Below are positions 5,076-36,335 of a DNA stretch of 64,000 nucleotides, one piece after another. Made by a program: the position numbers and the translations under genes. This DNA comes from Arthrobacter sp. PAMC 25486 (GTDB taxonomy: Bacteria; Actinomycetota; Actinomycetes; Actinomycetales; Micrococcaceae), in assembly GCF_000785535.1 (NCBI RefSeq), contig NZ_CP007595.1, forward strand, positions 3,122,439 through 3,186,438, read 5' to 3'. The notes beneath the pieces were generated by a model, which had not been told where the DNA came from, made no database searches, and saw only the letters and a program-made list of their open reading frames with translations. Each line of letters opens with the position of its first letter. The first letter of the stretch is position 1.

Positions 5076-5285
5076 CTAGGATCCGAGTTCGGCCTCGTCG
5101 TAGTCGAACAGTTCCTCGATGCTGGTGCTGAAGGTTCGGGCCAGTCGAAACGCCAGCGGGAGACTGGGGTTGTACTTGCCCCGCTCCAGGGCTATGACCG
5201 TCTGCCGGGAGACGCCAAGCGTTGACGCGAGCTGCTCCTGCGACCAGCCGGCAGCCTTTCTTGACTCTGAGATTTGGTTCTTCAA
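5076..5285 (-). CDS. Small XRE-family HTH regulator
   Basis: This 69-residue protein is essentially one helix-turn-helix domain: MKNQISESRKAAGWSQEQLA, then GVSRQTVIALERGKYNPSL and a short SIEELFDYD tail. It is the YozG/XRE type that commonly accompanies a small membrane protein. Its ATG (5283-5285) overlaps the stop of the upstream membrane gene by four bases (ATGA), so the pair is translationally coupled. It probably autoregulates the pair, perhaps through the inverted repeat at 5729-5763. Confidence 0.9.
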   Translation of the reverse strand: MKNQISESRKAAGWSQEQLASTLGVSRQTVIALERGKYNPSLPLAFRLARTFSTSIEELFDYDEAELGS

Positions 5286-5692
5286 GACCGGGCTTCCGCA
5301 AGGAGGTTGCGCTTGGCCCGGTGGTAGCGGAACCAGAATGCCGAGATGGCCAGGATGAGGGTGACCAGCATGGCCAGGGCGGCGAATGCTGAATCGGCAA
5401 AGATCGCCACCGCCGCAAGGGTGGCCACCAGGATCACGAGGGTGTCGATGTAGGCGGCAGACTGGGCCTGCGTGGCCACTTCCTTCTCAAAGCTGCCCTC
5501 GGCCTGCTCCAGTGTCCGCGCCTGGTGGCGCTTCTTCAGGAACATGACCGTCATGCCCGTCGCAAAGACCACGACGGATGAGAGAATGCGCGGCAGCACA
5601 TCATTGGGCGGTTCGGCGGCGACCGCCCAAGCCGTCAGGATGGCCAGCACTGCAAGTGCGATGGCGACGACACTGATGAATTGTTTCTTCAT
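5282..5692 (-). CDS. Small membrane protein paired with an HTH regulator
   Basis: The product has 136 residues and four predicted membrane segments (about residues 5-25, 33-50, 78-95 and 98-118). A charged loop lies between the second and third (KKRHQARTLEQAEGSFEKEVATQ). The start ATG 5692 is supported by GGAG at a good distance. A longer frame from 5746 would run into the inverted repeat upstream. Small membrane proteins of this kind in two-gene units with a YozG-type regulator are widespread in Gram-positives, but their role is unknown. Confidence 0.8.
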   Translation of the reverse strand: MKKQFISVVAIALAVLAILTAWAVAAEPPNDVLPRILSSVVVFATGMTVMFLKKRHQARTLEQAEGSFEKEVATQAQSAAYIDTLVILVATLAAVAIFADSAFAALAMLVTLILAISAFWFRYHRAKRNLLAEARS

Positions 5693-5728
5693 GCCCCAGC
5701 TCCGATACTTCGATGATATATGTAAAGC

Positions 5729-5763
5729 AACCTTGACATATTGCATGTAATGATGTCAAGGTT
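5729..5763. promoter_or_regulatory. 11-bp inverted repeat upstream of the membrane/HTH pair
   Basis: The arms aaccttgacat (5729-5739) and atgtcaaggtt (5753-5763) are perfectly complementary across 13 bases. The repeat lies between the MerR gene and the pair. The half-site CCTTGAC also occurs in the MerR promoter at 6592-6616, so either regulator could bind here. Confidence 0.55.
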
Positions 5764-5798
5764 ACTTTACTTTTCTTAGAAGGCGGGACCGTAGGGCT

Positions 5799-6578
5799 CT
5801 ATAGTTCCCGTTCCGCATAGACGCCCAGCGCATCGCTAACAAACTGAGCACCCGCCACGCCGCCGTAATTCGCGGCAAAGCGCTCGTCCGCAACATACAT
5901 TTCCGCAAGGCCCAAAACGTAGCCGCGTACGTCCCCGCCGGGTGCGGCGGCCGGAGTTCCTGGTATCGAAGAAAGCCAATCAACGTGGCGCCGCGCCAGC
6001 TCCTGCGCTTCGGGCGATGACGGCACGGTGCCGCCGGACGACAGGGCAAGCCAGTCGTTGTTCAGTGCCGCAACCTGGGCTTTCCATGTGGACTGACCGG
6101 AGGAATCCTTGCCGCGCCACCACGCGTCGCTCTGCGCATACGCCTCCGTGCCCCAGCGCTGTTCCACCTCTTCCTTGTGGTGAGTGTGGTCAAAACCGTC
6201 AAGCATGTCCTTTGCCATGATTCCCTCTCCCGCAGCCTCTGCTGCAATGGTCCTTTCAACTGACGCGATGAGCCGCGACAGTCGTTCCTGTTCGCCCCGC
6301 AGCAACGCAACATGGGTCCGCAGTGCCGAAGTTGCCGAGCTTTCTTGCGCCAAGACGGTAGAAATCGCGGGCAAGCCCAGTCCCAATTCGCGCAGCAGCA
6401 AAATACGTTGCAGCCGCGCCAGTGCGGTCTGGTTGTAGTGCCGGTACCCGTTGCCGGCAATGCGGCTCGGCACCAGCAGTCCGATGGAGTCGTAATGCCG
6501 CAGTGTTCGGCTGGTGGTTCCAGCCAGGGCTGCAATTTCCTGGATTGACCAGTCCGACGGGGCCTCTTCGATGCTCAT
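5799..6578 (-). CDS. TipA-type MerR family regulator
   Basis: The 259-residue protein begins with a MerR winged-helix domain (WSIQEIAALAGTTSRTLRHYDSIGLL, then GNGYRHYNQTALARLQRI). A coiled dimerisation helix follows (LRTHVALLRGEQERLSRLIASVE). The C-terminal TipAS-type domain from about residue 125 includes MLDGFDHTHHKEEVEQRWG and AYAQSDAWW. TipAS domains bind structurally varied antibiotics in Streptomyces TipAL. The start ATG 6578 is preferred over a longer frame because a complete MerR-type promoter lies just upstream, with its -10 seven bases before the ATG. The gene is therefore probably leaderless and autoregulated. Confidence 0.88.
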   Translation of the reverse strand: MSIEEAPSDWSIQEIAALAGTTSRTLRHYDSIGLLVPSRIAGNGYRHYNQTALARLQRILLLRELGLGLPAISTVLAQESSATSALRTHVALLRGEQERLSRLIASVERTIAAEAAGEGIMAKDMLDGFDHTHHKEEVEQRWGTEAYAQSDAWWRGKDSSGQSTWKAQVAALNNDWLALSSGGTVPSSPEAQELARRHVDWLSSIPGTPAAAPGGDVRGYVLGLAEMYVADERFAANYGGVAGAQFVSDALGVYAEREL

Positions 6579-29871: not shown

Positions 29872-30357
29872 ATGACTACCGCGCCAAATCAAGGAACTTC
29901 ACGCATCGAGGCCCGCCTCGCCGAGCTTGGCCTGAGCCTTCCGGCCGTGGCTGCGCCGGTGGCCGCCTACGTGCCGGCCGTCATCTCGGGCAACCATGTT
30001 TACACCTCCGGACAGCTGCCTTTTATTGACGGCAAACTCACAGCCACGGGCAAGGTTGGCGCCGAGGTTTCCGCTGAGGACGCAAAGTCCCTGGCCGCAA
30101 CCTCCGCAATCAACGCCATTGCCGCGCTGAAAAGCGTCATCGGCGACCTGGACCGCGTCACGCGGATCGTCAAGGTTGTGGGCTTCGTGGCCTCCGATCC
30201 CTCGTTCACCGGACAGCCGGGCGTCATCAACGGCGCATCCGAGCTCCTGGGTGAAGTATTTGGTGAGGCAGGCGTCCACGCCCGCTCCGCCGTCGGAGTT
30301 GCCGTTTTGCCGTTGGATTCACCCGTTGAGGTTGAGTTGGTTGCAGAATTCCAGTAG
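29872..30357 (+). CDS. RidA (YjgF/YER057c) family protein
   Basis: The 161-residue protein has the RidA chorismate-mutase-like fold, with VISGNHVYTSGQLPFIDGKL, TSAINAIAALKSVIGDLDRV and the C-terminal ARSAVGVAVLPLDSPVEVE. The conserved Arg of the imine-binding site appears as HARSAVG. RidA hydrolyses reactive enamine/imine intermediates from PLP enzymes. This longer subgroup (about 150 residues) is common in actinobacteria. It is preceded by DUF4177 and overlapped at its end by the Nudix gene. Confidence 0.92.
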   Translation: MTTAPNQGTSRIEARLAELGLSLPAVAAPVAAYVPAVISGNHVYTSGQLPFIDGKLTATGKVGAEVSAEDAKSLAATSAINAIAALKSVIGDLDRVTRIVKVVGFVASDPSFTGQPGVINGASELLGEVFGEAGVHARSAVGVAVLPLDSPVEVELVAEFQ

Positions 30358-31270
30358 CAGTCCCGCAGGGACGCGCCGTTTCCCGCTGAACGCTGATCAG
30401 CGGGAAGCAGCGCAGGCCTGGCTGGAGTTTGGCGAGCGAACGCCGAGCAAGCCGCGGCCGGCATCGTCGGTGGTGCTGTTGAAGGACAGCTCCTCCGGCC
30501 TGCAAACTTTTTTGACATACCGCCCGGGCGAGTCGCCGCTGGGCACCGTGGCGTTTCCCGGTGGCACCATTGAGGCAGCGGACGACGACGTCACCGACTG
30601 GGTGGGCCCCTCACCGACCCTCTGGGCCAAGAGCCTGGGCACTGCGGACATTGGCCTGGCCAAGCGGCATGTGGTGGCCGCCATCCGCGAATTGTTTGAA
30701 GAGACCGGCATCTTGTTGGCCGGCGCCGATGCGTCCTCCCTCGTTGAAAACATCACGGGGCCCGAATGGATGCGCGGGCGTGAGTCAATCGCCACGCAGG
30801 AGTCCACGTTTGCGCAGCTGCTGGAGCGATATGGGCTGGCCCTGCGCACCGATTTGCTCAAGCCGCTGAACCATTGGACCAGCCCCGACTTTGCGCACAG
30901 GCGCTTTGACACCCGGTATTTTGCTGCCGCCAGACCCGTGAACCAGGAAGCATCACTGCTTTCCAGCAAGGGTGTGTGGGGGCGTTGGGCCAGTGCCTTC
31001 GATATTTTGGCGCAGCGCAACACCCCCGCCCTGGGCGATGAGATCGGCCAGCCGGACACCTCCGGGCTGGCGCTGGGCGAACTGGTGGTGCCCGGGGTGG
31101 AGATCATCTTGGAGAAGATTGCGGCCGCCCGTGGTTGCATCGCGTACCTGAACCACAAGCGCCCCATCAACGAATACCAGCCGAAGCTGGTGGTGGGCGA
31201 CGACGGAGAATTTAACCTTGAGGTGCCCACCGCGCCATCCTCAGAAGGTGCGGCCTGCCGGGAGCGCTAA
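30341..31270 (+). CDS. Nudix hydrolase with a split Nudix box
   Basis: The 309-residue protein has VAFPGGTIE, then about 30 inserted residues, then AAIRELFEETGILLAG. Together these supply the G and REUxEExGU halves of the Nudix box. An interrupted box and the following TSPDFAHRRFDTRYFAA segment resemble the NUDT19/RP2-type CoA diphosphatases. A CoA or acyl-CoA substrate is therefore a reasonable guess, not shown. The start is uncertain. I use TTG 30341, which overlaps RidA by 17 bases and follows GAGGTTGAG. No better in-frame start lies downstream of the RidA stop. Confidence 0.82.
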   Translation: MQNSSSSPAGTRRFPLNADQREAAQAWLEFGERTPSKPRPASSVVLLKDSSSGLQTFLTYRPGESPLGTVAFPGGTIEAADDDVTDWVGPSPTLWAKSLGTADIGLAKRHVVAAIRELFEETGILLAGADASSLVENITGPEWMRGRESIATQESTFAQLLERYGLALRTDLLKPLNHWTSPDFAHRRFDTRYFAAARPVNQEASLLSSKGVWGRWASAFDILAQRNTPALGDEIGQPDTSGLALGELVVPGVEIILEKIAAARGCIAYLNHKRPINEYQPKLVVGDDGEFNLEVPTAPSSEGAACRER

Positions 31271-31320
31271 CCTCCCGCACGCAGACGCTCGCCTTTCGGG
31301 GCGTTTCGACCGACCCTCCG

Positions 31321-32550
31321 TCAGCGGACGCTTCTTGTCGCCAGTGCCTGACGGTACGTTTCCACGAGTTCCTCGGCGTGGGTACAGAAAGCAGCCCGGG
31401 CAGTGCCTGCCGCCACAGCCCGGCTCATGGCTTCGATCCGGTCCGAGTCCGTGGCGAGAGATTCCAGGACGGCTGCGATCCGGCCTGGCTGAGGGGAATC
31501 GGCCACGATGAAGCCGCCGTCAGGCAGCCCCTCGGCCAGATCCGGATCGCAGAGAACCACCGGAAGTCCAGAGGCCATGGCCTCAAGGATCACCATGGGC
31601 TGGTTGTCAAAGTCATGGGACGAGGAAACAAACACATGGTGCCGTCCCATGGCCTCGAGGACGTCGCGTTGCGGCACTCCGCCGTGCATCGTAATCCGGT
31701 GCTCCACACCCAGCCTGCGGATCAGGCGGCGCACCCGGGTGCCGGCCACGCCGTCGCCATAAATGCTGGCAACCACCGTCTCGCCGGCAGCGGCGACTGC
31801 ACGGACAAACACTTCCGGACGCTTTTCCGGCGACACCCGCCCGCACCACATGACCTGGAGGGGCTCGTCCGGAGACTTGCTGCGAAGTTGCGGGGCGCCC
31901 ACCAGCTCCAGAACGGAGTCTTCCAGGCCGTTGGACACCACATGCACCGGCGGCACGACACCCTGGTGGAGGAACTTCTTGGCAAGATGCTCGGAGGGCA
32001 CAATCACGGCGTCGGCGGCATTGGCCTGGTTGAGCATCAGGCGCCACATCCGCCGGGCCACCGCCGTGCGCATATAGGGGGATTCCGGATGCGCAGGGAG
32101 GCTGGTGTGCGGCAGGTGGTGCCGGTGGAGTGCAGCCAGCAACGCGGTGGTTAGTTGGGGCAGTGGGAGCACCTTGGCCGTGTACACATCAATCCGGCCG
32201 TGCATGCTTTGGACGAGCGGCAGGCCAAGCTCCTGCGCTGCCTTGATGCCGGCAAGGGCGGCGAAGACTTCGGAGTGCACATGCACCACGTCGACTTTTC
32301 GGGCTGCCAGCTCTTCCTTGAGCAAGGCAGTTGCGTCGCGGGGCGGCCAGGTGAAGGGGAATCCGTCGGGTCGGAACACCTTGGAAATGGGCAGTGCCAC
32401 GACGCCGGCAGCTTCGGAATCATGGCGGAGTGGGCAAAAGACGGTGACCTGGTGTCCCAGCTGTTCCAGGGACTCCTTTGCCGCCTTGATGGCTGTCTGC
32501 ACTCCGCCAAGGGTGGGCAGGTAGTAGTCGGTGACCATGGCAATATGCAT
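31321..32550 (-). CDS. Family 4 glycosyltransferase
   Basis: The 409-residue GT-B enzyme begins MHIAMVTDYYLPTLGGVQTAI and has VDVVHVHSEVFAALAG and SMHGRIDVY in the acceptor half. The donor half has CGRVSPEKRPEVFV, YGDGVAG and the retaining E-x7-E motif region FDNQPMVILEAMASGLPVV. Such enzymes transfer sugars from UDP or GDP donors to lipids or polysaccharides, like PimB/MshA types. It is divergent from the SDR-MBL-KASIII operon, with only 76 bases between starts, which suggests a shared pathway. TATAGT lies six bases before ATG 32550. Confidence 0.9.
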   Translation of the reverse strand: MHIAMVTDYYLPTLGGVQTAIKAAKESLEQLGHQVTVFCPLRHDSEAAGVVALPISKVFRPDGFPFTWPPRDATALLKEELAARKVDVVHVHSEVFAALAGIKAAQELGLPLVQSMHGRIDVYTAKVLPLPQLTTALLAALHRHHLPHTSLPAHPESPYMRTAVARRMWRLMLNQANAADAVIVPSEHLAKKFLHQGVVPPVHVVSNGLEDSVLELVGAPQLRSKSPDEPLQVMWCGRVSPEKRPEVFVRAVAAAGETVVASIYGDGVAGTRVRRLIRRLGVEHRITMHGGVPQRDVLEAMGRHHVFVSSSHDFDNQPMVILEAMASGLPVVLCDPDLAEGLPDGGFIVADSPQPGRIAAVLESLATDSDRIEAMSRAVAAGTARAAFCTHAEELVETYRQALATRSVR

Positions 32551-32556
32551 ATTTTA

Positions 32557-32562
32557 ACTATA
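32557..32562 (-). promoter_or_regulatory. -10 hexamer TATAGT, leaderless glycosyltransferase gene
   Basis: TATAGT-TAAAAT-ATG (32550) on the minus strand. Confidence 0.6.
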
Positions 32563-32614
32563 GGGAAGTCCCCGGCAGCGGTGCTGCGCTTACTGTGGTG
32601 CCCGCCGGAAGTCC

Positions 32615-32620
32615 TACCAT
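32615..32620 (+). promoter_or_regulatory. -10 hexamer TACCAT, leaderless SDR operon
   Basis: TACCAT-GGGGAC-ATG (32627), heading the SDR-MBL-KASIII operon. Confidence 0.5.
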
Positions 32621-32626
32621 GGGGAC

Positions 32627-33640
32627 ATGACGACTGACTCCCCGGCGCCCCCACCGTCCGTTCTGATCACGGGGGCCACCGGTTTTCTTGGCGGGTATGC
32701 AGTCAGTGAATTCCTGGCCCAGGGGTACAAGGTGGTGGCCCACGGCCGCAACCCTGCCGCCTTGGAGCGGCTGAGGGGGATGGGCGCCACCACCGTCGCC
32801 GGAGACCTTGCACAGCTGGCCCACATGAAACAGCCTGTGGACGTGGTGGTGCACGCTGCCGCCTTGTCCAGCCCCTGGGGGAAATGGGGGGACTTCAAGG
32901 ACAGCAATGTTGCAGGAACCCGCCACGTGGTCAGTTTCATGGAACGCAATGCGGTGCCCCGTCTCGTCTTTGTTTCCTCTCCCAGCATCTATGCCGGCAG
33001 GGGAGACAAGCTGGCCATCAGGGAAACCCGTCCCATCAGGAGCAAACCGTTGAGCTCCTACATTCGCTCCAAGATCGCTGCCGAGGCATTTCTACAGGAG
33101 GCGCACAGTTCCGGCCGGTTGCCTGAACTGTTGACCATCAGGCCGCGGGGAATCATCGGCGCCGGGGATCCCAGCGTCGCCCCACGGCTGCTGCAGGCCT
33201 ACCGCAAGATTGGTGTCCCCCTTTTCAGGGGCGGGGAGAACCTGGTGGACCTGACGGCAGTGGAGAATGTGGCCCTCGCCCTGCGGCTGGCCGCCGCAGC
33301 GCCCAGCGCCAACGGCCAGGTGTACAACATCACGAACGGGCAGCCGCGCCCGTTTAAGGAACTGTTGGAAATCCTGTTCAAGAAGTTGGACCTGCCGCCG
33401 CGGTACCTGAAGGCCAATGCCACCGTCTTCTACGGTTTGGGGGCGCTGCTGGAAGGAATCTGCCATGTCGTGCCAGGGCGCCCGGAGCCGCCGCTGAGCA
33501 GGTACATGGTCTCCACCATTGCGTATTCACAGACCTTGGACATTACGAGGGCACGCGCCGAGCTGGGTTATGAGCCCCGCGTAGATATTGAACAGGCGCT
33601 CGCAGCCTTTGCCACGGAGTACTCTAAAGACCATGCCTAG
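32627..33640 (+). CDS. OleD-like NAD(P)-dependent epimerase/dehydrogenase
   Basis: The 337-residue extended SDR has a cofactor loop TGATGFLGG (residues 15-23), DVVVHAAALSSPWGKWGDF, NVAGTRHVV and the catalytic Y145-x3-K149 (SSYIRSKIAAE). RPRGIIGAGDPS and the later NITNGQPRPFKELLEILFKKL are typical of the 3-beta-HSD/OleD group, which reduces 2-alkyl-3-ketoacids in olefin biosynthesis. The next two genes are an MBL hydrolase and a KASIII-type synthase, supporting reduction of a fatty ketone intermediate. The stop overlaps the MBL start by eight bases. Confidence 0.85.
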   Translation: MTTDSPAPPPSVLITGATGFLGGYAVSEFLAQGYKVVAHGRNPAALERLRGMGATTVAGDLAQLAHMKQPVDVVVHAAALSSPWGKWGDFKDSNVAGTRHVVSFMERNAVPRLVFVSSPSIYAGRGDKLAIRETRPIRSKPLSSYIRSKIAAEAFLQEAHSSGRLPELLTIRPRGIIGAGDPSVAPRLLQAYRKIGVPLFRGGENLVDLTAVENVALALRLAAAAPSANGQVYNITNGQPRPFKELLEILFKKLDLPPRYLKANATVFYGLGALLEGICHVVPGRPEPPLSRYMVSTIAYSQTLDITRARAELGYEPRVDIEQALAAFATEYSKDHA

Positions 33641-34397
33641 CGGAGAACTGCGCTATTACGCCTGCGGATACACCACCCACCAGATGAAGCAACTGATGCA
33701 CGGGCGCCCACGCGAGCGCCGGGTGTTTCCTGCCGGGGTGTTCCTGTATTGCCATCCAGATGGTCGCACGGTGCTGTTCGACACCGGATATGGGCCTGCG
33801 ACGTGGCGCGCGGGGGTGGCCGGCTTTCTCTACACCCTGCTGCTGCCGCCCCGGATCCGTCCCGGGCAAAGCATCGCCGCCCAGCTGCTCGCCGACGGAA
33901 TCCCTGTCGAGTCCATCGATTTTGTGGTGCTGTCCCACCTGCACCCGGACCATCTTGGCGGGGTGCGATACTTTCCACAAGCCACCTTTGTGCTCAGCGA
34001 AGCCATGCTGGAAACACTGGCCAACGCGAAATTGACGGAAGGGTTCCTGCCGCAGTTGCTGCCGCACTGGTTTCCGGCGGCAGCGAAGCTGGTGGTGGAC
34101 CCCGGCCAGGGCGAGGTGGACCTTTTGGGCGACGGCAGCTACCGGCTGGTGGACCTGCCCGGCCATGCCAAGGGGCACATGGGAGCCCTGGTGGAAGAAC
34201 AGGCGCTGCTGGCCGGCGACGCCTCCTGGGGCGAAGACCTGATGGGCTCGGTCCAACAGATTAAGGCCCTGCCCCGCGCCATCAACCACCGGTGGAACGA
34301 CTACGAACAAACCATCCGGCGGCTGCAGCAGTGGAAAGCGAATGGCGTGAAACTGTACTTCAGCCACGACCACCAGGACCACAAAAAATTGCTGTAA
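33633..34397 (+). CDS. MBL-fold metallohydrolase of the lipid module
   Basis: The 254-residue metallo-beta-lactamase-fold hydrolase has H102-L-H104-P-D106-H107 (the metal site), DTGYGPATW, LVDLPGHAKGHMGALV, the aspartate in LLAGDASWGEDL and a final HDHQDH. The pattern resembles the lactonase/esterase branch (AHL lactonase-like), so a lactone or thioester substrate is plausible. It starts inside the SDR gene (ATG 33633) and is followed after 93 bases by the KASIII gene. It is a poor match in context for the HTH-containing MBL gene (Rv3677c) found in mycobacteria. Confidence 0.85.
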   Translation: MPSGELRYYACGYTTHQMKQLMHGRPRERRVFPAGVFLYCHPDGRTVLFDTGYGPATWRAGVAGFLYTLLLPPRIRPGQSIAAQLLADGIPVESIDFVVLSHLHPDHLGGVRYFPQATFVLSEAMLETLANAKLTEGFLPQLLPHWFPAAAKLVVDPGQGEVDLLGDGSYRLVDLPGHAKGHMGALVEEQALLAGDASWGEDLMGSVQQIKALPRAINHRWNDYEQTIRRLQQWKANGVKLYFSHDHQDHKKLL

Positions 34398-34490
34398 TCG
34401 CTGAAGAATCTCCCAATAGGCCGCGGAGCGCCTTGGTCGAAGCCCGCCACCCGTGGATACTTGAAAAAGCCCATCGAAAGGGAACCGCTG

Positions 34491-35432
34491 ATGCCTCAAA
34501 TCCGCAACTGTCGAATTGCCGGATATGGCACCTATCTTCCTGAGCACGTTGTGAAGTTTGGTGCGCAAACCCGCTACAGGGTCTCGGAAGACGAAAGCCA
34601 GCTTGGCATGCTCACGGCCGCAGCCAGGGACGCGCTGGACCGGGCGGGCATCAAGGCCGAGGACGTGCAATGCATCATCGGCGCCAGCGCTGCCGGCATC
34701 CAGCCGATCCCGTGCACGGCCGCCCTCGTGTTGGAACAGCTTGCGCCATTTGGCGTGGCAGCAGCCTTTGATGTGAACTCCACCTGCACCTCCATGATCA
34801 CGGCCCTGGACATTGCCTCACGCTACATCGCCGACGGCACCTATGAATCGGTGCTCATCACGGCGGGCGACGTTGGGTCCCGCTTCCTCAACCCGGAGCA
34901 GGCGGAAAGCTTCTCGCTCTTTTCCGACGCCGCCGTGGCATTTGTCCTGACGGCCACCGACGATCCGGCCCAGGGTGTGGTGGCAAGCACCCAGCGCACG
35001 TGGGCTGCATACGCCCACGACACAGAGATCCGCGGCGGCCTGAGCCGCTCGCCGGCGCAAATGTATGCGGACTCCGACCCCGCCGATTACCTCTTTGACA
35101 TGAACGGCCGGTCGGCGCTGCGGAACATGCTGACGGTGCTGCCGGAATTCCTGGCAAAATTCCTTGCCACGTCGGGCCTGTCACTGGAAGACATGTCACT
35201 GGTGATTCCGCACCAGGCCAGCCCCGCCATCACCATCGCCCTGCGCCGCATCGGCATCCCGCAGGAACAATACATTGACTGGGTTGCTGACATTGGCAAC
35301 ATGGTCTCAGCCTCGGTGGGATACGTGCTGGCCAAGGTCCTGGAACAGGAACGGGTGCGCCGAGGTGACACCGTGATGTTGTTTGGCACCGCGGCCGGGC
35401 TGACCGCAAACGCCCTGGTCCTGCGGCTTTAG
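34491..35432 (+). CDS. Ketoacyl synthase III / OleA-like thiolase-fold enzyme
   Basis: The 313-residue FabH-type condensing enzyme retains the C-H-N triad: C99 in NSTCTSM, H241 in PHQASP and N270 in IGNMVSAS. AGYGTYLPEHVV at the N-terminus and FGTAAGLTANALVL at the C-terminus are family-typical. FabH proper is normally clustered with fabD, fabF and acpP, absent here. With an SDR and an MBL hydrolase upstream, an OleA-like Claisen condensation or a specialised acyl transfer is more likely. The start ATG 34491 follows AAAGGGA. A terminator follows. Confidence 0.85.
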   Translation: MPQIRNCRIAGYGTYLPEHVVKFGAQTRYRVSEDESQLGMLTAAARDALDRAGIKAEDVQCIIGASAAGIQPIPCTAALVLEQLAPFGVAAAFDVNSTCTSMITALDIASRYIADGTYESVLITAGDVGSRFLNPEQAESFSLFSDAAVAFVLTATDDPAQGVVASTQRTWAAYAHDTEIRGGLSRSPAQMYADSDPADYLFDMNGRSALRNMLTVLPEFLAKFLATSGLSLEDMSLVIPHQASPAITIALRRIGIPQEQYIDWVADIGNMVSASVGYVLAKVLEQERVRRGDTVMLFGTAAGLTANALVLRL

Positions 35433-35469
35433 CTTTCCCAGGCCGGGGATCGCTTAAAGTACGACGGCG

Positions 35470-35502
35470 GGGGGTCACCTTTGCTGTGAAAGGTGACCTC
35501 CC
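35470..35502 (+). terminator. Hairpin terminator after the KASIII gene
   Basis: A ggtcaccttt/aaaggtgacc stem (35473-35482 with 35489-35498) extends by flanking G-C pairs around a six-base loop, without a T run. It lies between the convergent KASIII and crp genes. Confidence 0.65.
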
Positions 35503-35599
35503 GCCCGTTCGCTGCCTCCCACGGCAGCTCTCTTACCCGCGAGAGGGAACCGCTGATCCCGCGAGTGGTGGGCCCACAGCTCCGAGCAATCGGGTTCTT

Positions 35600-35623
35600 T
35601 GGGCCCCCGCGCCCGAGGGACCC
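35600..35623 (-). repeat. Dispersed 24-base repeat, copy 1
   Basis: The complement of this stretch matches 56603-56626 at 23 of 24 positions (core gggtccctcgggcgcg then gggccca). It lies in the convergent spacer before crp, in a locally palindromic region from about 35540 to 35650. Confidence 0.6.
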
Positions 35624-35657
35624 GCTGCGAGGAACGAGCGGTGGGAGGGCGTGGGGA

Positions 35658-36335
35658 CTAGCGGGAGCGCTGGCGCAGGCGGTTCACGTCCAGGATCACC
35701 ACGGCGCGGGCTTCCAGGCGGAGCCAGCCGCGCTGGACGAACTCGGCCAGGGCCTTGTTGACGGTTTCACGTGAAGCACCGACCAGCTGGGCCAGTTCCT
35801 CTTGCGTGAGCTCGTGGGCCACCAGGATGCCGTCGGTGGCGGGGCGGCCAAAGCGGTCGGCGAGGTCCAAGATGGCCTTGGCAACGCGGCCGGGGACATC
35901 CGAGAACACCAGGTCGGACAGGTTGTCGTTGGTGCGGCGCAGGCGGCGGGCCAGGGCCTGCAGCAGCTGCATGGACACCTCGGGGCGGTTGCGCAGCAGT
36001 GCGTTGAGGGATTCGTTCTTCAAACCGGCCAGGCGGGTTTCGGAAACGGCGGTGGCAGTGGTGCTGCGCGGTGCCGGATCAAAAAGTGCCATTTCGCCGA
36101 AGAGCTCGCCCGGGCCCAGGATGGCAACGAGTGATTCGCGGCCGTCCGAGGAGGTGCGGCCCAGCTTGACCTTGCCGGAGACGATGAAATAGAGCTGGTC
36201 GCCCTGGTCGCCTTCACGGAAGACCGAAGCTCCGCGGGAAAGATCCACCTCCGCCAGTTCGTCCGTCAATAGGCGGAATGCCTCATCGTCGAGCGTGGCG
36301 AATAGTGGTGCCCGTCGTAGTACCTCGATGTCCAT
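35658..36335 (-). CDS. crp: Crp/Fnr family cAMP-binding regulator (GlxR-like)
   Basis: The 225-residue protein has an N-terminal cyclic-nucleotide-binding domain with GELFGEMALFDPAPRSTTA. This matches the phosphate-binding cassette of true cAMP receptors: Glu, then Arg-Ser/Thr. The C-terminal winged helix shows LTQEELAQLVGASRETVNKALAEF. It corresponds to Crp (Rv3676) of M. tuberculosis and GlxR of Corynebacterium, global regulators of carbon metabolism. AAGGAG precedes ATG 36335. A candidate site lies upstream of acs in this same window. Confidence 0.95.
   Translation of the reverse strand: MDIEVLRRAPLFATLDDEAFRLLTDELAEVDLSRGASVFREGDQGDQLYFIVSGKVKLGRTSSDGRESLVAILGPGELFGEMALFDPAPRSTTATAVSETRLAGLKNESLNALLRNRPEVSMQLLQALARRLRRTNDNLSDLVFSDVPGRVAKAILDLADRFGRPATDGILVAHELTQEELAQLVGASRETVNKALAEFVQRGWLRLEARAVVILDVNRLRQRSR

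Follow-up and report, generated by a model that had tools for sequence, protein, structure and literature searches.

A four-gene ketosynthase cassette of Arthrobacter sp. PAMC 25486 and its tentative assignment to a glycosylated beta-hydroxy lipid

What might be made by a ketosynthase that shares an operon with a reductase and a hydrolase, next to a divergent glycosyltransferase gene? This question is raised by a stretch of 64,000 nucleotides from Arthrobacter sp. PAMC 25486 (contig NZ_CP007595.1, positions 3,122,439 to 3,186,438), which we call the window. Here a gene for a family 4 glycosyltransferase (GT4) diverges from an operon that encodes a short-chain dehydrogenase/reductase (SDR), a metallo-beta-lactamase-fold (MBL) hydrolase and a ketosynthase of the beta-ketoacyl synthase III type (KASIII, or KAS). 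The initial annotation described an OleA/OleD-like lipid module, in which the MBL hydrolase stood in for OleB and OleC. The arrangement that it gave is accurate in its genes, coordinates, catalytic residues and the 8-base overlap of the SDR and MBL genes (33633-33640); its account of a specialised operon of lipid-type enzymes also stands, but the OleA identity does not, and the match to OleD, though the best one, stays under the cut-off. That the four genes form a real conserved biosynthetic unit is far surer than any product. In our best reading the cassette was horizontally acquired and belongs to a spread scaffold pathway. That it makes a glycosylated beta-hydroxy lipid, with a chemistry deduced from enzyme families, is a tentative proposal. 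To this reading as a whole we give somewhat less than an even chance.

Conservation and insertion of the four genes

A scan with KAS patterns yielded 55 loci; it reaches fairly close kin only, so that this number is not a census. In 50 of the 55, the order and orientation GT4(-) SDR(+) MBL(+) KAS(+) were kept. The other five comprise four loci cut by contig ends (L043, L049, L074 and L076) and one deletion (L067). The GT4 is therefore a true operon partner, and the four-gene set, for which a search in other genomes had been suggested, does co-occur elsewhere. The genera with loci include Microbacterium, Curtobacterium, Frigoribacterium, Frondihabitans, Ruania, Occultella and Propioniciclava. 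With one locus left out (L023, from Arthrobacter sp. H35-MC1), the mean identity to the window proteins was 54% for GT4, 53% for SDR, 48% for MBL and 63% for KAS. All four genes were matched in 51 loci at E 1e-5 and in 50 at 1e-8; the count falls because L067 retains only the last part of the SDR gene beside a cut GT4 gene. We used the 50 for the unit and the 51 for the division by gene content described below. In L067, from a Demequina metagenome-assembled genome (MAG), GT4 and SDR are both cut and their remnants abut near 5241-5886, through a deletion or an assembly fault.

Within the window's own family, Micrococcaceae, the KAS occurred in only 2 of 149 genomes, and in the order in 16 of 297, eight of these at 39% identity or less. 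Arthrobacter sp. H35-MC1 has the same locus as the window. Among 12 genomes of the genus, the Nudix gene adjoins crp in eight, the cassette lies between them in two (the window genome and G128), and two are cut by contig ends. The insertion into otherwise conserved synteny that had been proposed for this locus is thus borne out.

Affinities of the ketosynthase

The KAS is a thiolase-superfamily protein, with a Cys-His-Asn triad and both PF08545 and PF08541 above cut-off. It is not an OleA. According to an excerpt of PMC7064751, a catalytic Glu117 followed by Pro marks OleA, with two exceptions among the OleA proteins studied there. In an alignment of 78 rows, which contains this genome's own FabH twice, the position is Ile in the window KAS and I, L, M, Q or T in 77 rows altogether, with E in the genome's own OleA only. 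The OleA search motif EPxx[AS]x(14,18)DxxNACL, as given in an excerpt of PMC7158056, occurred in 9 of 9 OleA rows, in none of the 70 cassette KAS and in none of the 13 FabH rows. The model PRK09258 (cut-off 285) gave 463.7 bits to the genome's own OleA and 83.8 to the window KAS. No alpha/beta-hydrolase or OleC was present among the four cassette genes or their immediate neighbours.

FabH was rejected as well. The window KAS scored 144.7 bits with TIGR00747 (cut-off 292.1) and 172.8 with PRK09352 (cut-off 249). We built a tree of 62 rows: 37 chosen representatives of the 70 cassette KAS, 9 OleA, 13 FabH and 3 others. The OleA and FabH rows were gathered with this genome's own OleA and FabH, plus E. 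coli FabH, as queries, and MxnB, CorB and PpyS were left out. OleA formed one group (support 100/100), FabH formed another (100/98), and the window KAS lay outside both; the tree that the initial annotation had called for therefore sets the KAS apart from FabH. The closest structures in the PDB were MxnB (4v2p, 4e-36) and CorB (4yuc, 1e-31), followed in third place by a FabH (2ebd, 1e-30). An excerpt of PMC4578411 places MxnB and CorB in the FabH clade of a published tree, and for this reason a FabH-side ancestry of the cassette KAS is likely. The same placement, together with a triad and KASIII domains common to KAS and FabH, would suit an extra FabH-type enzyme of fatty-acid housekeeping among unrelated neighbours. 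This explanation is disfavoured and in our judgement very improbable: the KAS stands outside the FabH group and below the FabH cut-offs, its distribution is patchy, the genome encodes its own FabH elsewhere, and the four-gene unit is conserved.

The kinship to MxnB and CorB, the myxopyronin and corallopyronin enzymes, suggests another possibility, namely a synthase of an alpha-pyrone or a similar lactone, in which the KAS would act on two beta-ketoacyl units and the MBL would open or edit the lactone. Besides being the best PDB matches, both enzymes resemble the KAS in carrying a hydrophobic residue at the OleA glutamate position (V94 in an excerpt of PMC4578411). However, the cassette has no polyketide synthase (PKS) or carrier protein, its keto-removing reductase does not fit pyrone formation, and FabH 2ebd follows close behind CorB. 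We regard the likeness as sequence kinship only, and a pyrone-type product as quite unlikely.

Among 19 NCBIfam models, the best for the window KAS was PRK07204 (NF005541), with 245 bits against a cut-off of 402. This model, which names no pathway, also ranked first for the other four cassette KAS scanned, with 303 bits for Fusobacterium, 333 for E. coli, 352 for Ketogulonicigenium and 445 for Pontibacillus; of the five, Pontibacillus alone passed the cut-off. By its score, then, the window KAS is kin of PRK07204 and not a member. Cassette KAS formed one group with a support of 75/60, or 97/90 when the long-branched L084 joins.

Accompanying enzymes and a variable fifth gene

OleD (NF042422) is the best named match of the SDR, at 173 bits against a cut-off of 580. 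The SDR of this genome's own ole cluster, at 280 bits, also falls under that cut-off. An OleD-like assignment thus keeps its best match but does not reach the threshold. The MBL carries HxHxDH (HLHPDH, beginning at residue 102) and the further metal ligands of N-acyl-homoserine lactone (AHL) lactonases, and its predicted structure displays the lactonase fold. It scored 70.1 against 390 bits with the AttM equivalog model and 35.1 against 375 with that of AiiA. Compared with AiiA, AiiB, GcL, AhlX and 4-pyridoxolactonase, it is 18-24% identical and differs in being embedded in a biosynthetic operon. The best NCBIfam matches of the GT4 were lipid and exopolysaccharide GT4s, all under cut-off.

Between the MBL and KAS genes, 28 of the 51 loci contain an additional gene, X (E 1e-5), which is absent from the other 23. 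X belongs to TIGR02304, "F390 synthetase-related protein", an adenylate-forming family: two actinobacterial X scored 444.4 and 390.6 bits (cut-off 251.9), E. coli X 755.5 and Fusobacterium X 715.1. Its PDB relatives are PaaK-type CoA ligases. In the loci without X the MBL-KAS gap measures 12-156 bases, and two further X queries matched nothing there. A hidden X elsewhere in the genome was ruled out, for TIGR02304 had no match at E 0.001 in the whole window genome or in G128. The window thus holds a reduced form of the cassette, with KAS, SDR and MBL present and TIGR02304 absent. Since at least three changes of state are needed on a quick tree and a Fusobacterium relative carries X, repeated loss is the likeliest history, and X is probably missing from the window genome through loss. 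The MBL is kept in all 23 loci without X, and it must therefore act without the X product. The claim that the MBL replaces OleB and OleC needs amending accordingly: in relatives an OleC-like role could be filled by X, which is absent here, and the MBL is retained regardless of X.

These observations invite a comparison with the Ole pathway of Micrococcales, which likewise has a thiolase-fold condensing enzyme and an extended SDR, and shares with the fuller cassettes an adenylate-forming enzyme and a hydrolase. The differences lie in a KAS without Glu117 and the OleA motif, an MBL in place of the alpha/beta-hydrolase OleB, X (missing in the window) in place of OleC, and an attached glycosyltransferase. 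In a mostly non-orthologous counterpart of that pathway, KAS and SDR might stand for OleA and OleD, X for OleC (forming a beta-lactone by adenylation) and MBL for OleB (processing the lactone), and the X-less window would stop at a hydroxy acid. This parallel would account for the OleD match of the SDR, the adenylate-forming family of X and the lactonase fold of the MBL. It also gains from a second partnership of X. Among 249 genomes of Microbacteriaceae, the family of genome G239, KAS occurred in 10, TIGR02304 in 9 (E 1e-40) and both in 3. The six X genomes without KAS have an SDR beside X in five, a weak ketosynthase match in five and an MBL in none. In one such locus (L150:3296-8902), X has an SDR and an OleA-type ketosynthase for neighbours; genes for a P450 and a zinc alcohol dehydrogenase come next, and there is no MBL. 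This ketosynthase has OleA 3fk5 as its best PDB match (4.5e-34) and reaches 163.5 bits with PRK09258, under 285. Sets of X, SDR and ketosynthase were also seen in L148, L149 and L152. X thus pairs with two ketosynthase lineages, which fits a role on the ketosynthase/SDR product and supports the parallel with Ole. Nevertheless, we hold this parallel to be unlikely. Glu117 is missing from the KAS, X is closer to PaaK and F390 synthetase than to OleC, 23 X-less cassettes retain the MBL though no beta-lactone would arise there, and the glycosyl- and sulfotransferase partners suit a retained polar product rather than an olefin.

The PaaK-type relatives of X point in a different direction, to the Pseudomonas quinolone signal (PQS). 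In the PQS route, PqsA activates an acid and PqsD adds malonate. By analogy, X would activate an aryl or acyl acid, the KAS would add malonate, the MBL would hydrolyse the beta-ketoacyl thioester as PqsE does, and the SDR would reduce the acid, giving a small signal-like glycoside instead of a membrane lipid. PqsD and PqsC are among the KAS relatives in the PDB (8e-19 to 6e-16), and PqsE is an MBL-fold thioesterase on 2-aminobenzoylacetyl-CoA in an excerpt of PMC9241726. On the other side, MxnB, CorB and several FabH outrank PqsD as KAS matches, the window has no X, and no aryl-supply gene was seen in the cassettes opened. The MBL model ranks with lactonases; PqsE was not among the 50 structural matches listed, an absence that excludes nothing. 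A PQS-like route is, in our view, rather improbable.

The wider family and a proposed pathway

The cassette reaches well beyond Actinomycetota. In a tblastn search of plasmid records with the KAS (40 records matched, 25 of them listed and 12 opened), KAS, SDR, MBL and X occurred together in 11 of the 12 opened loci, from Fusobacteriota, Bacillota and Pseudomonadota. A Streptomyces plasmid match was rejected, its KAS sitting in a mevalonate cluster. In Fusobacterium vincentii, whose 2.1 Mb record is classed as a plasmid, the genes run in the order SDR-MBL-X-KAS, like those of the window's X-bearing kin, and are preceded by a GT21-type gene and a small protein that is conserved between Fusobacterium and distant actinobacterial cassettes. 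This protein, of 210-215 residues and with no Pfam match, was seen beside the GT21-type gene at L099:2943-3590 and L079:12861-13493. Outside Fusobacterium, neighbouring genes were taken from the record annotations. The Pontibacillus and Paenibacillus cassettes add an ATP-grasp protein, and that of Paenibacillus a GNAT as well; a divergent TetR regulator and a sulfotransferase accompany those of Ketogulonicigenium and Paracoccus; Shinella, Roseateles and Paraburkholderia add GNAT and/or ATP-grasp, and two of these three also a Rieske protein. The Burkholderia and Novosphingobium records are unannotated, yet all four queries match, with the Novosphingobium SDR split over two frames. In E. coli the cassette is extended by PAP2, a fatty-acid hydroxylase and a desaturase, lies between narGHJI and tRNA-Tyr/purU, and occurs in 672 of 5,426 complete genomes, at 671 chromosomal and 2 plasmid sites.

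Among eight distant actinobacterial loci (L078-L085), six have an SDR, a GT21-type gene, the small protein and a GT1-like gene opposite KAS-MBL(-X), and four of these six contain X. At E 1e-40, TIGR02304 had no matches in 296 genomes across the phylum. A GT2 gene (PF00535) was seen beside SDR and MBL at L153:9093-9920, with KAS on the other strand and no X or GT4 match. An MBL homologue with 50% identity (P0144) occurs in a Candidatus Microsaccharimonas MAG, which may mean that the cassette extends to Saccharibacteria, unless the contig was binned wrongly.

For the window, the pathway that we tentatively prefer would run as follows. Lacking a base of the OleA type, the KAS would condense an acyl thioester with another acyl unit, either by decarboxylative malonyl extension or with a pre-activated beta-ketoacyl partner as in MxnB and CorB. 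Reduction by the SDR would then turn the beta-keto group into a hydroxyl, the MBL would free the carboxylate from a thioester or lactone, and the GT4 would glycosylate the product to a glycosylated beta-hydroxy lipid. In fuller cassettes X might activate the starter acid, or else the hydroxy acid that is produced; the window genome would do without this step or borrow a CoA ligase. In RhlA/RhlB logic, a beta-hydroxyacyl unit comes first and sugar transfer follows. We propose a likeness to this rhamnolipid-type order, while the enzyme families differ.

Several points weigh against this proposal. We know of no product, substrate or activity for any member of the cassette. The MBL could be a true lactonase acting on a lactone intermediate instead of a thioesterase, and the KAS could take aryl instead of fatty acyl groups, given that X is similar to ligases of the PaaK type. 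The specificity of the GT4 is unreadable from its sequence, its best named matches being far below cut-off. A single origin of the cassette KAS is only modestly supported by the two tree values given above, and the Ketogulonicigenium KAS lies just above the PRK09352 FabH-subfamily cut-off (250.2 against 249). L084 and L085, from the set of eight distant actinobacterial loci, show a KAS only and no cassette, and of the annotated GNAT and ATP-grasp proteins, the one of each that was scanned had no Pfam match. Finally, the GC content of the cassette, 63-65%, equals that of the window, 63.8%. The case for transfer therefore rests on distribution and the empty site; either the event is an old one or the donor had a similar GC content.

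Although the tailoring genes come from different families, many are of types whose enzymes attach groups to hydroxyls, amines or carboxyls, as would suit a scaffold that offers one of these as a handle. In the openly licensed PMC literature, no description of the cassette, its product, the function of its E. coli operon or that of TIGR02304 was found. It is possible, although we think it doubtful, that KAS, SDR, MBL and TIGR02304 form an undescribed pan-phylum scaffold pathway, parallel to ole and built from different enzymes. Its hydroxy-acyl or lactone product would be capped lineage by lineage with sugar, sulfate, acyl or amino-acyl groups, TIGR02304 enzymes would constitute a new class for acyl or beta-lactone activation, and the Arthrobacter and Curtobacterium forms would be reduced and sugar-only. 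The window offers a small instance of a conserved cassette that occurs in four phyla (Actinomycetota, Bacillota, Fusobacteriota and Pseudomonadota) and about one eighth of complete E. coli genomes. With four genes and no carrier protein, this instance is compact enough for its chemistry to be tested by heterologous expression. Working out that chemistry would assign TIGR02304, an adenylate-forming family named for its resemblance to coenzyme F390 synthetase.

The features of the locus are collected in Table 1. The KASIII gene starts with ATG downstream of AAAGGGA. A promoter scan of 31200-35700 found no sigma-70 consensus. The terminator noted earlier corresponds to a strong hairpin 3' of the KAS gene, but it has no T-run and is not among the terminator-scan results; a terminator role is plausible.

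Table 1. Features of the cassette locus (window positions) and of related loci (L numbers)
Feature	Position	Strand	Basis
GT4 glycosyltransferase, divergent from operon	31321..32550	-	PF13439 91.9 bits, PF13692 68.7
Divergent intergenic region, 76 bases, presumed shared control region	32551..32626		sequence
Extended SDR, OleD-like by best match, Y145xxxK149	32627..33640	+	PF01370 (Epimerase)
MBL-fold hydrolase, AHL-lactonase fold (predicted), 254 aa	33633..34397	+	PF00753 (Lactamase_B)
Probable ribosome-binding site of KASIII, AAAGGGA	34477..34483	+	sequence
KASIII-type ketosynthase, 313 aa, C99-H241-N270, Ile73 instead of OleA glutamate	34491..35432	+	PF08545/PF08541 (ACP_syn_III)
Strong hairpin 3' of operon, without T-run	35463..35509 (about)	+	-37 kcal/mol, z = -6.7
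Left flank: Nudix-type gene, start uncertain	30176..31270	+	PF00293 21.2 bits vs cut-off 21.1; synteny
Right flank: crp-type regulator	35658..36335	-	99-100% identical in 12/12 genus genomes
E. coli NRG 857C chromosome operon KAS-SDR-MBL-TIGR02304-PAP2-fatty-acid hydroxylase-desaturase	L108:5067-11948		
oleA	L095:3521-4546		own genome
Alpha/beta-hydrolase + AMP-binding fusion (oleBC), start uncertain	L095:4411-7218		own genome
oleD-like SDR, 280 bits	L095:7173-8240		own genome

The organism as a whole does not lack OleB and OleC. Its own ole cluster, with oleA, an oleBC fusion and an oleD-like SDR, lies near G000:C1 1193520-1198240, separate from the cassette. Such oleA-oleBC-oleD clusters are reported, in an excerpt of PMC7158056, for almost all Micrococcaceae species with complete genomes. 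The same genome also has a type III PKS gene (chalcone/stilbene synthase domains) at L098:7826-9031, beside an open reading frame resembling an FAD monooxygenase.

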